DNA from: Eggerthellales bacterium
GTDB lineage: Bacteria; Actinomycetota; Coriobacteriia; Coriobacteriales; Eggerthellaceae
Direction of reading: 5' to 3'
DNA: 40,335 nucleotides
NCBI GenBank assembly: GCA_029225085.1
Contig: JAQXVU010000044.1
Location: 1 to 40,335 of the forward strand
Shown here: positions 30,524 to 35,753 of the stretch, piece by piece
Layout: every line of letters begins with the position of its first letter
Numbering within the stretch: the first letter of the stretch is position 1
The notes under the pieces: generated by a model
Seen by the model: only the letters and a program-made list of their open reading frames with translations
Told to the model about the DNA's origin: nothing
The model's database searches: none
Position numbers and translations under genes: made by a program

Positions 30524-32266
30524 CTACTCAATCACCTGGGCGATGAAATCCTCAGGAGCACGGGTGCCCTGAGCGAATGCAGCGATGCGCTCGTACAGCT
30601 CACCGGTAGCCACGTTCTTCTTCTCGCCGGTGGCGCGAACCTTCACCTCGAAGTTGCCCTCATCGAGGCCACGCTTGCCAACCACGATCTGTACGGGCCA
30701 GCCAATGAGATCGGCATCGTTAAACTTCACGCCAGGACGATCCTTGCGGTCATCGACCACGACCTCGAGGCCTGCAGCAGTCAGAACATCGGCCAGACGC
30801 TGAGCCTCAGGGGCCACGTAGTCATCGCCCACGGACAGAGGGATCACACAAACGTGAGCAGGGGCCACGGTCATAGGCCAGATGATGCCCTTCTCGTCGT
30901 TATGCTGCTCGACGATAGCGGCCAGGGTACGGCTCACGCCCACGCCATAGCAGCCCATGATGAAGTACTGCTCCTTGCCATCGGCATCCAGGTAGGTGGC
31001 GCCCATGGTACGGGAGTACTTCTCGCCCAGCTGGAAGACCTGAGACACCTCAATGCCGCGGCAGCCGGTCATGGTTGCGCCGCAGTGAGGGCAATCATCG
31101 CCAGGCTTCACCACGGACAAATCAGCCCAGGCATCGACGGTGAAATCGCGACCAGGGGTTGCACCCGCATAGTGGAAGCCGTCCTTGTTGGCGCCTACCA
31201 CCCAAGCGGTGATGGCCTTCAGGTTCTCGTCAGCGGCAACCTTTACCTTCTCAGGCAGGCCCACAGGACCAATGGAACCCTTGGGCAGACCGATTTCTTC
31301 CAGCTCCTCGTCAGTGAGCAGCTCGAAGCCGGGAATCAGGCGCTCGGCCTTAATCTCGTTCAGCTCGTGGTCGCCAGGAATGAACAGGGCCCAGACGCAG
31401 CCCTCCTCGTCCTTGCCTACCATGGCCTTCACGGTAGAGGTCTCAGGAATGCCCAGGAACTCAGCCAGGCTGGCGATGGAGCCAACGCCGGGGGTCTCGA
31501 TCTCGGTGAGCTCGGTTACCTCGTACTGGGTGGGGTGGCAGATGCAGGCGCCAGCCTCGGTGTTGGCGGCGTAGCTGCAGTCGGGGCAGGTTACCAGCTC
31601 GGCCTCACCGGCATCGGCGAGAGCCATGAACTCGGTGGTCACCTTGCCGCCGATCTGGCCGGAGTCAGCCTCTACAGGACGATAGTCGAGGCCGCAACGA
31701 TCGCAGATGTTGCCGTAGGCCACGCTCATCTCGTCATAGGTCTTCTGCAAGGACTCCTGGCTCTCATTGAAGCTGTAGGCGTCCTTCATGATGAACTCGC
31801 GGCTGCGCAGCAGGCCGAAGCGAGGACGGATCTCGTCGCGATACTTCGACTGAATCTGATACAGCGTGGTAGGAAGCTGCTTGTAGGAGCGCAGCTCGGA
31901 ACGAACCAGAGCGGTGATGAGCTCCTCGTGAGTGGGGCCAAGGCAGAAGCCATGGTCATGGCGATCGTTGAAGCGCATGAGCTCAGGGCCGTAGTCATCC
32001 CAACGACCGGACTCGTGCCACAGCTCGGCAGGCTGCAGGGCGGGCATGAAGACCTCCTGAGCGCCGGTAGCGTCCATCTCGTCGCGGACGATCTCTTCGA
32101 TCTTGGCCAGAACCCGCTTGCCCAGAGGCAAGTAGGTGTACACGCCGGCAGCGGTCTTGCGCATCATGCCGGCACGAAGGAGCAGCTTATGGCTGGCGAT
32201 CTCTGCGTCAGCAGGATCATCGCGCAACGTAGGCGCGTACAGCTTGCTCATATACGTGATGCTCAT
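30524..32266 (-). CDS. proS: Prolyl-tRNA synthetase, bacterial type with editing domain
   Basis: Charges tRNA-Pro. Class II motifs are clear: FCLGPTHEE and RPRFGLLRSREFIMKDAYSF (motif 2), and MGCYGVGVSR (motif 3). The INS editing domain lies at about residues 225-390, placing it in the bacterial (ProS type 1) group; the C-terminal anticodon domain has VDDRKDRPGVKF. Length is 580 residues. ATG 32266 overlaps the ispG stop as ATGA, implying coupling. A Cys-rich stretch (CPDCSYAANTEAGAC, near residue 232) is common in this type. It is the last gene of the pyrH-proS block. Confidence 0.97.
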   Translation of the reverse strand: MSITYMSKLYAPTLRDDPADAEIASHKLLLRAGMMRKTAAGVYTYLPLGKRVLAKIEEIVRDEMDATGAQEVFMPALQPAELWHESGRWDDYGPELMRFNDRHDHGFCLGPTHEELITALVRSELRSYKQLPTTLYQIQSKYRDEIRPRFGLLRSREFIMKDAYSFNESQESLQKTYDEMSVAYGNICDRCGLDYRPVEADSGQIGGKVTTEFMALADAGEAELVTCPDCSYAANTEAGACICHPTQYEVTELTEIETPGVGSIASLAEFLGIPETSTVKAMVGKDEEGCVWALFIPGDHELNEIKAERLIPGFELLTDEELEEIGLPKGSIGPVGLPEKVKVAADENLKAITAWVVGANKDGFHYAGATPGRDFTVDAWADLSVVKPGDDCPHCGATMTGCRGIEVSQVFQLGEKYSRTMGATYLDADGKEQYFIMGCYGVGVSRTLAAIVEQHNDEKGIIWPMTVAPAHVCVIPLSVGDDYVAPEAQRLADVLTAAGLEVVVDDRKDRPGVKFNDADLIGWPVQIVVGKRGLDEGNFEVKVRATGEKKNVATGELYERIAAFAQGTRAPEDFIAQVIE

Positions 32267-33339
32267 TGCAGTTTCCCTATCTCCTCAAGCAGGACATCGA
32301 CGATGTCGCTCTGTTGAACTTTTCGTATTATGGCACCATGGGCGAAGATTGCGCCCGAGCCATTGCCACATGCTACACCTAAATCGGCATCCGCGGCCTC
32401 TCCTGGGCCATTCACCACGCAAACCATAACGGCAATCATCAGAGGTTTCGCCAGGTTCGCGGTGCGGCGTTCAACCTCTTTAGCCAAAGCGATGAGATCG
32501 ACCTGGCAGCGACCGCAGGTGGGACAGCTCACCAGCTCTACGTTGCGGCGACGCAGGTCGAGAGCGGCCAGCAACGCCCAGCATGCGCGAATCTCCTCAG
32601 TGGGGTCGTCGGTGAGGGAGATGCGCATGGTGTCGCCAATGCCCTCTTCCAGCAAAATGCCCAGACCAGAAGCGCTCTTCACCAAGCCTTGGAACAAGGT
32701 GCCCGCCTCCGTAACACCAATGTGCAGGGGAACCTGAGGGATCTCCTGGGACAGGATGCGGTAGGTCTGCACCGTAGTCATGACATCGTGGGCCTTAGCG
32801 GACACCACCACGTCGTTAAAGCCCCGCTCCTGGAAGTGGGCCACGTAGTCCGTGGCGCTCTTAGCCAGCTTCTGAGGCAGGGTCAGATCCGTGCGCTGCT
32901 TCAGGGCATCATCGAGAGAACCCGCGTTCACGCCGATGCGGATGGGGATGCCCGCCTTGCGCGCCTCCTCTATCACCAGGTCAGTTGGCTCCCAGCCGCC
33001 GATGTTGCCGGGGTTGATGCGCAGCTTGGCCGCTCCCCTCCTGGCAGCCTCGATAGCGATCTGGGCGTCGAAATGCACGTCGGCCACCACGGGAAGGGGC
33101 GACGCGGCACAGACGGCCTCGAAGGCATCGAGACAATTACGACGTGGAATGGCCATGCGCACGATCTCGCAGCCAGCCTCCGCCAGAGCCTGAATCTGGG
33201 CCAGGTTGGCCTCCACATCCTGAGCTGGGGCATTCAGCATAGACTGCACCGCCACCGGTGCACCGCCGCCAACGGGCACATCTCCCACCATAACCTGGCG
33301 CGTGCGCTGGTTGGGGCGCAACATCGAAGCGTCCTGCAT
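32263..33339 (-). CDS. ispG: 4-hydroxy-3-methylbut-2-enyl-diphosphate synthase
   Basis: The penultimate MEP-pathway enzyme, an iron-sulfur protein. The cluster ligands are visible as CPTCGR and the later VCVVNGPGEA (Cys plus Glu), and LRINPGNIGG is conserved. Length is 358 residues from ATG 33339; that start is chosen because AGGAGGG lies just before it, while the upstream codon at 33354 would put the ribosome site inside the gene. It overlaps proS by 4 bp and follows rseP by 94 bp. Confidence 0.96.
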   Translation of the reverse strand: MQDASMLRPNQRTRQVMVGDVPVGGGAPVAVQSMLNAPAQDVEANLAQIQALAEAGCEIVRMAIPRRNCLDAFEAVCAASPLPVVADVHFDAQIAIEAARRGAAKLRINPGNIGGWEPTDLVIEEARKAGIPIRIGVNAGSLDDALKQRTDLTLPQKLAKSATDYVAHFQERGFNDVVVSAKAHDVMTTVQTYRILSQEIPQVPLHIGVTEAGTLFQGLVKSASGLGILLEEGIGDTMRISLTDDPTEEIRACWALLAALDLRRRNVELVSCPTCGRCQVDLIALAKEVERRTANLAKPLMIAVMVCVVNGPGEAADADLGVACGNGSGAIFAHGAIIRKVQQSDIVDVLLEEIGKLQ

Positions 33340-33433
33340 GTTCCCTCCTAACAACTATCCTCGTAAGCTCGGGTTGCCCGTACCTCTCAGGCGTCAGCAA
33401 CCTGGCCCGCAATTTACCCTCGGCAGCCGCAGG

Positions 33434-34495
33434 CTACCAGTTTCCAAACACAAACCGCTGTATATCCTGATTCAGCATGAACAGGAAGAACAGCATGAAC
33501 AGCGTCATGCCCATGAGGCTGATGAACCCCAGGGTATTGGTAGACACCGCCCGACGGGTCACCAGCTGCCAGATCTCTACCAGAAAGCGACCGCCATCGA
33601 GAGGTGGAATAGGCAGCATGTTCATGAGGCCCAGAGACACCGAGATCATGGCCATGAACATGAGGGCGTTTTCAAATCCCGCCTCGAAATAGGCCTTCGA
33701 CAACACGGCGATGCCCACCACCGAGGTGGAATTAGACACCGTGTCGGCGGCAGTCTGGGGGTTGAAAAGCCCCAGGATGGCCATGAACACCATGCCGATG
33801 TAGTTGAAGCCAGCCGTAACGGCCCTGTCTACCGAGACCGTGACGTGGGTGATCTCCTGGGTGACGTTGTCTATCACGTCGAATCCCATGACAGAATAGA
33901 TGAGCACGAAGGCCAGAATGGCAAAGAGCAGGTTCATGCCGGGACCTGCCAGCAAGATGAAGATGCGCTTCAGGAAGCCCTTCGACCGATACTGCACCGA
34001 GCGCTCCGCCTCGTAGAAGGCCTTGGGGTCCGCCACCTCACGAGCTGCGCCCACGCCGCGACCATCATCGGCCACCGCGTAGTACAGGTCGTAGTACTTG
34101 TCGTCGGTGCGCTTCCCCGCCTTCACGGTGCCCCACTCATCGAGCTCTATGAGGGCAGCAAGGGCGCCATCCTCATCGGTGCCCAGATAGCGAGCGAGTT
34201 CCACCGCCGTAGCGCTACCGTGCCGATGCACGTAGGTCATGGCGTCCTTCAGAAAGGGGCTCTCCTCGTCGGCTTCCATACCGCAAACACGGGCATAGCC
34301 GCCCAGGGGAACCGCCGTCACGCCAAACTTGGTGCCATGCCAGGTAAACCCCACGTTGGGGCCCGGTAAACCCAGCATGAACTCTGTGACCCGCACGCCG
34401 CAGGCTCGAGCCGCCAGGTAGTGGCCGCCCTCATGAATGAACACCAGGACGCTCAGGACAACGACCAGGCAAACTACCGTTATCAGAATATCCAT
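33434..34495 (-). CDS. rseP: RseP/YluC-type site-2 protease without PDZ, with winged-helix-like insert
   Basis: An intramembrane zinc protease (M50). The HExxH motif HEGGH is at residues 21-25, PLGGY at 63-67, AGPGMN at 183-188, and LPIPPLDGG with the third ligand Asp300 at 294-302. The PDZ domain that normally follows the AGPxxN helix is missing: only about 20 residues separate it from the next helix. Instead residues 81-140, before the AGP helix, look like a winged helix (ATAVELARYLGTDEDGAL, then a KxGKR...YYDLYYA wing). ATG 34495 is favoured over 34528 because MDILITVV begins the first membrane helix. It sits in the usual place between dxr and ispG, so it is orthologous by context. Confidence 0.88.
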   Translation of the reverse strand: MDILITVVCLVVVLSVLVFIHEGGHYLAARACGVRVTEFMLGLPGPNVGFTWHGTKFGVTAVPLGGYARVCGMEADEESPFLKDAMTYVHRHGSATAVELARYLGTDEDGALAALIELDEWGTVKAGKRTDDKYYDLYYAVADDGRGVGAAREVADPKAFYEAERSVQYRSKGFLKRIFILLAGPGMNLLFAILAFVLIYSVMGFDVIDNVTQEITHVTVSVDRAVTAGFNYIGMVFMAILGLFNPQTAADTVSNSTSVVGIAVLSKAYFEAGFENALMFMAMISVSLGLMNMLPIPPLDGGRFLVEIWQLVTRRAVSTNTLGFISLMGMTLFMLFFLFMLNQDIQRFVFGNW

Positions 34496-34502
34496 ATACC
34501 CG

Positions 34503-35753
34503 CTAGCACATCCCTCGCACCTGCTCATCAGCGGTGCGACGAGCCCAGAAATCCAGCTCCAGGAGCTGCTCGACGCTTTCCACGGTCTGAACGCCCTCTT
34601 CCTCGTGAGCTTCCATAACCGCCTCTACCACGTCGGCGATGCCCAGATAGGACAGGCGCTCAGACAGGAATGCTGCCACCGCAATCTCGTTGGCAGCGTT
34701 CATGACGCAAGGCAGGGTGCCGCCCACGGTGCCAGCGTGACGGGCCAGGGCCAGGCAGCGGAAGGTGCGGGTGTCAGGCGCAGCGAATTCCAGAGAGCCC
34801 AGCTTGCGGAAGTCGAGGGGCTCTACAGGAGCAGGCCAACGGTCAGGGTAGGACAAGGCGAACTGAATGGGGATGCGCATGTCCGTGGTGCCCAGATGGG
34901 CCTTCACGGAACCGTCGGTGAACTCGACCATAGAATGGATGGCGCTCTGAGGCTGCACCACCACCTCGATCTTGTCGTAGGGCATGTTGAAAAGATGGTG
35001 AGCCTCGATGACCTCGAGACCCTTGTTCATAAGGGTGGAAGAATCGATGCTGATCTTCGCGCCCATGTTCCAGGTAGGATGGGCCAGGGCCTGAGCTGGG
35101 GTGATCTCAGCCAGATCAGCCAGGGTCTTACCGCGGAAGGGGCCTCCGGAAGCGGTGACCCACAGCTTGGCCACCTCGTCAGCGCGCTCCCCCAGCAGGC
35201 ACTGATAGATAGCGCCATGCTCGGAATCGATGGGCATGAGGGCGCCAGCGGGACCGGTGGCAGGAGCCAGACCGGCAGCGCGACGGGCTTCGTCTACCTG
35301 AGCAGCCAGCGGCATGATCAGGTCGCCGCCCACCACCAGGGACTCCTTGTTGGCCAGGGCAAGAACCTTACCGGCTTTCAGAGTCTCATAGCTGGCGCGA
35401 AGGCCTGCAGCACCCACCAGGGCGTTCACCACGATGTCCGCCTCGGGCATGCGGCAAAGGTCGAGCAGGGCGTCGGAGCCATAGGCGACCTCACAGGGGC
35501 CGTCTGAGCCGACGATCTTGGCAGCCTCATCTGCCCACTGGCCGCGCTGAACGCTATCGGCAGGCTCCTTAGCAGCAACCACATGGGAAACGCCGAACTC
35601 GGCAGCCTGGGCCAACATATCCTGAATGCGGGTGTTCACCGACAGGCCCACCACGGCGAGCTTCTCGGGGTTACGGCGAACCACGTCGAGGGTCTGGGTA
35701 CCGATAGAGCCAGTAGAGCCCAGAACTACGATGTTTCTCTTAGAGCCCTGCAT
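34503..35753 (-). CDS. dxr: 1-deoxy-D-xylulose-5-phosphate reductoisomerase
   Basis: First committed MEP-pathway enzyme, target of fosmidomycin. GSTGSIGTQTLDV (NADPH loop), ALANKESLVVGG, PIDSEHGAIYQ and the ASGGPFRG segment are diagnostic. At 416 residues it is slightly longer than usual because of an Ala/Gly/Pro-rich insert (about residues 160-170) before the SEHGA motif. Its start overlaps the cdsA end by 14 bp, with GGAGG 11 bases before, and it ends 7 bp before rseP. Confidence 0.97.
   Translation of the reverse strand: MQGSKRNIVVLGSTGSIGTQTLDVVRRNPEKLAVVGLSVNTRIQDMLAQAAEFGVSHVVAAKEPADSVQRGQWADEAAKIVGSDGPCEVAYGSDALLDLCRMPEADIVVNALVGAAGLRASYETLKAGKVLALANKESLVVGGDLIMPLAAQVDEARRAAGLAPATGPAGALMPIDSEHGAIYQCLLGERADEVAKLWVTASGGPFRGKTLADLAEITPAQALAHPTWNMGAKISIDSSTLMNKGLEVIEAHHLFNMPYDKIEVVVQPQSAIHSMVEFTDGSVKAHLGTTDMRIPIQFALSYPDRWPAPVEPLDFRKLGSLEFAAPDTRTFRCLALARHAGTVGGTLPCVMNAANEIAVAAFLSERLSYLGIADVVEAVMEAHEEEGVQTVESVEQLLELDFWARRTADEQVRGMC

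Follow-up and report, generated by a model that had tools for sequence, protein, structure and literature searches.

An RseP-type site-2 protease of Eggerthellaceae that lacks the PDZ domain and carries a predicted cytoplasmic winged helix

Introduction

Can an RseP-type protease exchange the domain that restrains it for a module of a different kind? In the standard account, proteases of this type avoid premature cleavage by means of a PDZ size filter, and Eggerthellaceae, which are gut bacteria, manage without one. The question arose from a single gene in the window, that is, the whole 40,335-nucleotide stretch of Eggerthellaceae DNA analysed here, for which a first-pass annotation had proposed that the PDZ domain was replaced by an insert resembling a winged helix-turn-helix (wHTH). 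Here, we explored the domain content of the encoded protein, the evolutionary history of the two domains concerned, and the functions with which such an architecture might be compatible.

Results

An RseP orthologue without a PDZ domain

The gene is part of a same-strand array with the order pyrH-frr-uppS-cdsA-dxr-rseP-ispG-proS, and Pfam matches of the neighbours agree with the canonical dxr-rseP-ispG arrangement recognized at the outset (Table 1). The open reading frame spans positions 33434-34528 of the minus strand, with a second possible ATG further upstream, at 34528, that overlaps dxr; the start at 34495, from which the protein begins MDILIT..., is favoured because M1 and D2 are near-invariant in an alignment of 73 relatives. 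The same protein was matched in 134 of 138 genomes of the family, with 48-67% identity across long stretches, so that the architecture described below is not a product of chance. Elsewhere in the window genome, two more short M50-type proteins are encoded, in frames of 253 and 178 aa (L002, L003, L004).

Table 1. Position of the protease gene, its neighbours, and the elements of the encoded protein in the window
Feature	Residues	Window positions	Strand	Basis
ispG (GcpE), downstream neighbour		32263..33354	-	Pfam
rseP-like M50 site-2 protease gene, 353 aa + stop		33434..34495	-	
LPIPPLDGG active-site motif	294-302	33590..33616	-	
Region kept after the PDZ place, PCT region of group I site-2 proteases	222-272	33680..33832	-	model helices 222-242, 246-255, 259-272
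Beta hairpin of 18 residues at the PDZ place of relatives	204-221	33833..33886	-	model, residue count
TM2 helix, with AGPGMN	174-203	33887..33976	-	model
Variable linker and conserved ER..QYR.. segment, into TM2	143-177	33965..34069	-	
wHTH insert in the TM1-TM2 loop	76-142	34070..34270	-	AlphaFold, full length and alone; PDB matches; Pfam TrmB/MarR/IclR in relatives
Recognition-type helix alpha3, acidic, conserved W121 at its end	108-121	34133..34174	-	
Membrane-reentrant beta region, including PLGGY	36-70	34286..34390	-	model strands 36-42, 48-52, 55-60, 67-70
TM1 helix, with zinc-binding HEGGH (21-25)	2-31	34403..34492	-	model helix; alignment to RseP structures
dxr, upstream neighbour		34503..35753	-	Pfam

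The assignment to the M50 family is clear: Pfam M50 (PF02163) was matched at 6e-48 (163.5 bits against a cut-off of 27.2), and the catalytic landmarks that the first-pass annotation had pointed out, HEGGH (residues 21-25), AGPGMN (183-188), and LPIPPLDGG (294-302), are all there, in addition to PLGGY (63-67). The AlphaFold model of the full-length protein (mean pLDDT 87.8, pTM 0.85) matches E. coli RseP (PDB 7w6x) with Z 25.0 and rmsd 2.3 over 259 aligned residues. With that enzyme and group I site-2 proteases generally, the window protein shares the M50 motifs, the reentrant beta region (the MRE beta-loop of site-2 proteases; PMC4597795), the AGP and LDG helices, and the setting beside dxr and ispG. 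Also shared is the PCT region, which follows PDZ in group I (PMC7728848), the helices predicted within residues 222-272 occupying the position given there. Unlike these enzymes, however, the window protein has no periplasmic PDZ domain and carries an added wHTH in the TM1-TM2 loop. Bacillus RasP (PDB 9a6w, an integrative model with EcsA), a member of the same protease family (Z 25.0, 292 residues, rmsd 3.9), has a single PDZ domain (PMC7728848) and in retaining it differs from the window protein. Group III site-2 proteases, such as SpoIVFB and mjS2P, resemble it in having no PDZ, but they are characterized by a CBS domain (PMC10202637), for which the Pfam scan of the window protein gave no match, and they reach only Z 8-10 to its model. 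The score against the RseP equivalog NCBIfam TIGR00054 (143.7 bits) falls just under the cut-off of 147.55, as expected with one domain missing. The phylogeny places the protein among PDZ-bearing RseP of Coriobacteriia, and dxr and ispG adjoin the gene. By phylogeny and gene order, it is an RseP orthologue, derived from group I site-2 proteases, that fails the defining feature of that group, at least one PDZ domain between TM2 and TM3, none being apparent by Pfam, residue count, or model.

Indeed, Pfam detected no PDZ in the window protein, nor does the domain appear in the list of families matched within its alignment of 73 members; in all 4 sister-family proteins scanned, PDZ was matched, at up to 2e-11, in one case just below the curated cut-off. 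The model leaves 18 residues between the TM2 helix and the next helix, close to the 20 or so that had been counted after the AGPGMN helix, and PDZ-bearing relatives are about 77 residues longer at this hairpin; on this point, the initial claim that PDZ is absent was correct. The same holds for the entire family. The asparagine of AGP-x-x-N is separated from LDG by 112-113 residues in 126 Eggerthellaceae records and by 187-209 residues in 48 records, representing 47 distinct proteins, of 15 further Coriobacteriia families. The Eggerthellaceae records came from two overlapping collections and represent 93 distinct proteins, every one of which lacks PDZ, including those of Slackia, Adlercreutzia, Gordonibacter, Enteroscipio, and Ellagibacter, whereas the domain is kept in the 47 proteins from the other 15 families.

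The insert is predicted to be a cytoplasmic winged helix

The wHTH-like segment that had been read between PLGGY and the AGP helix emerged from both approaches applied to it, structure prediction and profile search. The confident AlphaFold model consists of alpha1 (residues 82-92), a beta strand (94-96), alpha2 (97-104), alpha3 (108-121), a second strand (124-126), the wing, and a third strand (137-140), the alpha1-beta1-alpha2-alpha3-beta2-wing-beta3 topology of wHTH domains; in the full-protein model, pLDDT is about 92-95 for the helices, dropping to 78-87 for the wing, and the insert predicted alone adopts the same fold (86.3). Its closest solved structures are all winged helices, namely, an ESCRT-II subunit (Z 9.7, rmsd 2.8, 68 aligned residues), with which Z-alpha domains (Z 9.1-9.6) and FtsK gamma (Z 9.4) are tied; matches with Z below 10, with many other wHTH domains within 1 Z, indicate the fold and not kinship. 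Sequence profiles agree independently with the model: Pfam TrmB was matched by 38 of the 73 relatives (best E 4e-6), HTH_IclR was matched at up to 2e-4 in the set for the whole class, and the profile of the insert itself recovers regulators (see below). The region that follows the domain is variable, and some Eggerthellaceae RseP (L060, L061) have about 60-80 additional residues between the wing and TM2, Ala/Pro-rich in L061.

The reentrant beta loop of RseP dips into the membrane from the cytoplasm, and the PDZ domains of the enzyme occupy the periplasmic segment connecting TM2 to TM3 (PMC4597795, PMC7728848). Given that the insert comes after the reentrant region and before TM2, it should be cytoplasmic, by homology to the RseP topology. 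Here the first-pass annotation does not hold: the wHTH has not replaced PDZ, the two being in different loops and, by homology, on opposite sides of the membrane, and they coexist, with the PDZ region at full length, in the 47 distinct proteins from the other 15 families.

Evolutionary history of the two domains

All 140 distinct Coriobacteriia RseP examined, from 16 families, contain the wHTH in a TM1-TM2 loop of 97-188 residues, so that the insert is conserved across the class, as is PDZ outside Eggerthellaceae. In most of the 26 RseP from other classes of the phylum, the loop is 31-42 residues long and the PDZ region is of full length, and the insert profile matches only the flanks of the loop. 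Three RseP of other classes have longer loops, of 68 (L216), 81 (L227), and 126 (L174) residues, apparently unrelated to the wHTH. A search of 296 genomes of the phylum with the insert profile gave matches in 26 Coriobacteriia and 17 others, but we rejected the idea that the insert extends further across the phylum: one of the 17 is the L174 RseP, with its unrelated-looking loop, and the other 16 cover mainly the wHTH part, all 3 of those examined being IclR-type regulators.

In a tree built on the membrane core, with the insert and PDZ columns excluded, a single change accounts for the absence of PDZ; it maps to the branch leading to Eggerthellaceae (support 100/99), which itself arises from within PDZ-bearing lineages. 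These sequence data make a well-supported case that Coriobacteriia acquired the wHTH close to the base of the class and that a single, later loss on the stem of Eggerthellaceae removed PDZ. With gain at the base of the class and later loss in one family, there was no substitution of one domain by the other. We are all but certain of the PDZ-less, wHTH-bearing architecture taken together with this two-step history.

Discussion

The open-access literature searched, on RseP in Coriobacteria, on wHTH domains in site-2 proteases, and on PDZ-less forms, contained nothing relevant. Apparently, then, the PDZ-less RseP with a cytoplasmic wHTH is a real variant of a well-known enzyme that is undescribed in that literature, and so is the addition, throughout the class Coriobacteriia, of a domain beside the substrate-presenting region.

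What might such an enzyme cleave? The window genome, rated 100% complete, encodes a single sigma-70 region-2 protein, the frame of which, at 467 aa, has the size of RpoD; the only Sigma70_r4_2 match reads as a LuxR-type response regulator, and a profile search found no zf-HC2 anti-sigma factor. There is no zf-HC2 match across 23 Coriobacteriales genomes either, so that a substrate of this type was discarded; of 36 genomes from other orders of Coriobacteriia, 13 have one. With only one RpoD-like sigma factor and no zf-HC2 protein, classical anti-sigma cleavage by this RseP seems unlikely in the window organism, judging from its gene content. In E. coli, RseP removes signal peptides as well as small membrane proteins (PMC10470546) and, by analogy, the turnover of both would be the likeliest task of the window enzyme. 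When its PDZ is disrupted, E. coli RseP cleaves RseA without site-1 cleavage (PMC10202637); a study cited in that paper bears the title "Dispensable PDZ domain of E. coli YaeL essential protease". The window genome also encodes an HtrA-type protease (537 aa) and an S41-type protease (420 aa), both with PDZ (L211, L212), so that a separate site-1 protease could exist.

Thus, we propose that Eggerthellaceae RseP would not be gated from outside and that, without the PDZ size filter, the enzyme would act on short or pre-trimmed single-span substrates, i.e., signal-peptide remnants and small membrane proteins. The cytoplasmic wHTH would sit just past the reentrant beta region that presents substrates, where the acidic domain could dock a partner from the cytoplasm, or that portion of a substrate which lies in the cytoplasm, beside the active site, and not DNA. 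Taken as a whole, this scenario, in which a PDZ-less RseP orthologue with an older cytoplasmic wHTH cleaves ungated short substrates and docks proteins, is the one to which we lean, albeit modestly; for docking as the role of the wHTH, the balance is even.

The cause of the PDZ loss is a separate issue. A shortage of ECF sigma factors was considered and found to have no consistent link with it across genomes: Eggerthellaceae with up to 13 sigma-70 region-2 proteins likewise have no PDZ, and a single such protein is all that some genomes with PDZ encode, so that the loss is not explained by missing ECF factors. Alternatively, the loss could have been a neutral simplification in a lineage that has given up site-1-gated signalling via RseP, the older wHTH being unconnected with it. 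Such a course of events would fit the missing zf-HC2 matches in Coriobacteriales and the presence of one sigma-70 region-2 protein in 12 of 26 family genomes (that of the window and eleven others). However, sister families of the same order are also without zf-HC2 and yet have kept PDZ, and the Eggerthellaceae rich in sigma factors have lost it too, which leaves neutral loss a tenable but minority explanation.

As for the wHTH, the preference for protein docking comes from its charge. Averaged over 73 Eggerthellaceae proteins, the net charge of alpha3 is -6.1 (range -8 to -4); in other Coriobacteriia families, the value is 0 to -6, and for the complete domain, each family of the class has an acidic average. 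An acidic alpha3 within an acidic domain favours contact with protein over DNA and, most likely, the wHTH makes protein contacts beside a protease that is not gated from outside. The ESCRT-II subunit and DDRGK1 use their wHTH domains for protein contact. The likeness of the insert to both is at the fold level only, the former being among the top fold matches and the latter a weak profile match (E 0.007).

Under a different interpretation, the wHTH needs no partner and serves as an intramolecular gate or brace on the reentrant beta region, steering the entry or release of substrates on the cytoplasmic side. Its position between the reentrant region and TM2 is constant in every Coriobacteriia RseP examined, Trp occurs at position 121 in 171 of 174 Coriobacteriia records, position 118, also at the helix end, is Leu in 171 and Val in the rest, and the full model has a high pTM, all of which suits a fixed element. 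By contrast, the linker after the domain is highly variable, with the long extensions mentioned above, and a mobile module fits such variation in length better than a rigid brace; we consider the gate or brace doubtful. Still less likely, in our assessment, is that Eggerthellaceae RseP takes its regulatory input from the cytoplasm, with recognition of a protein signal there by the wHTH giving the go-ahead for cleavage; regulated intramembrane proteolysis, which usually runs from the outside in, would then be controlled in the opposite direction. Whichever way the wHTH acts, Eggerthellaceae RseP offers a natural test both of the need for PDZ in selectivity and of control from the cell interior.

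DNA binding, by which RseP would become either a regulator tethered to the membrane or a protease under the control of adjacent DNA, has some structural appeal: among the fold matches are DNA-binding wHTH domains such as FtsK gamma, Z-alpha, and MarR, IclR regulators are recovered by the insert profile as well, and the wing, the basic hairpin of the first-pass annotation, is indeed basic in Eggerthellaceae (mean +1.9) and could suit contact with nucleic acid. The recognition-like helix described there, however, stands up in its predicted topology but not in its chemistry: with -4 to -8 in all the Eggerthellaceae proteins examined, its charge ill suits DNA contact, the corresponding helix of the IclR regulators caught by the profile being +3, and the average for the domain is net acidic in each family of the class. 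DNA binding by the wHTH is therefore unlikely on this reading of its residues, and the tethered-regulator scenario is highly improbable. Finally, the suggestion that a diverged PDZ domain, or else an artefact of assembly or frame, accounts for the insert merits virtually no credence: the wHTH model, obtained with the full length and with the insert alone, and the occurrence of both domains in sister-family proteins rule out the former, and the architecture recurs across the family.
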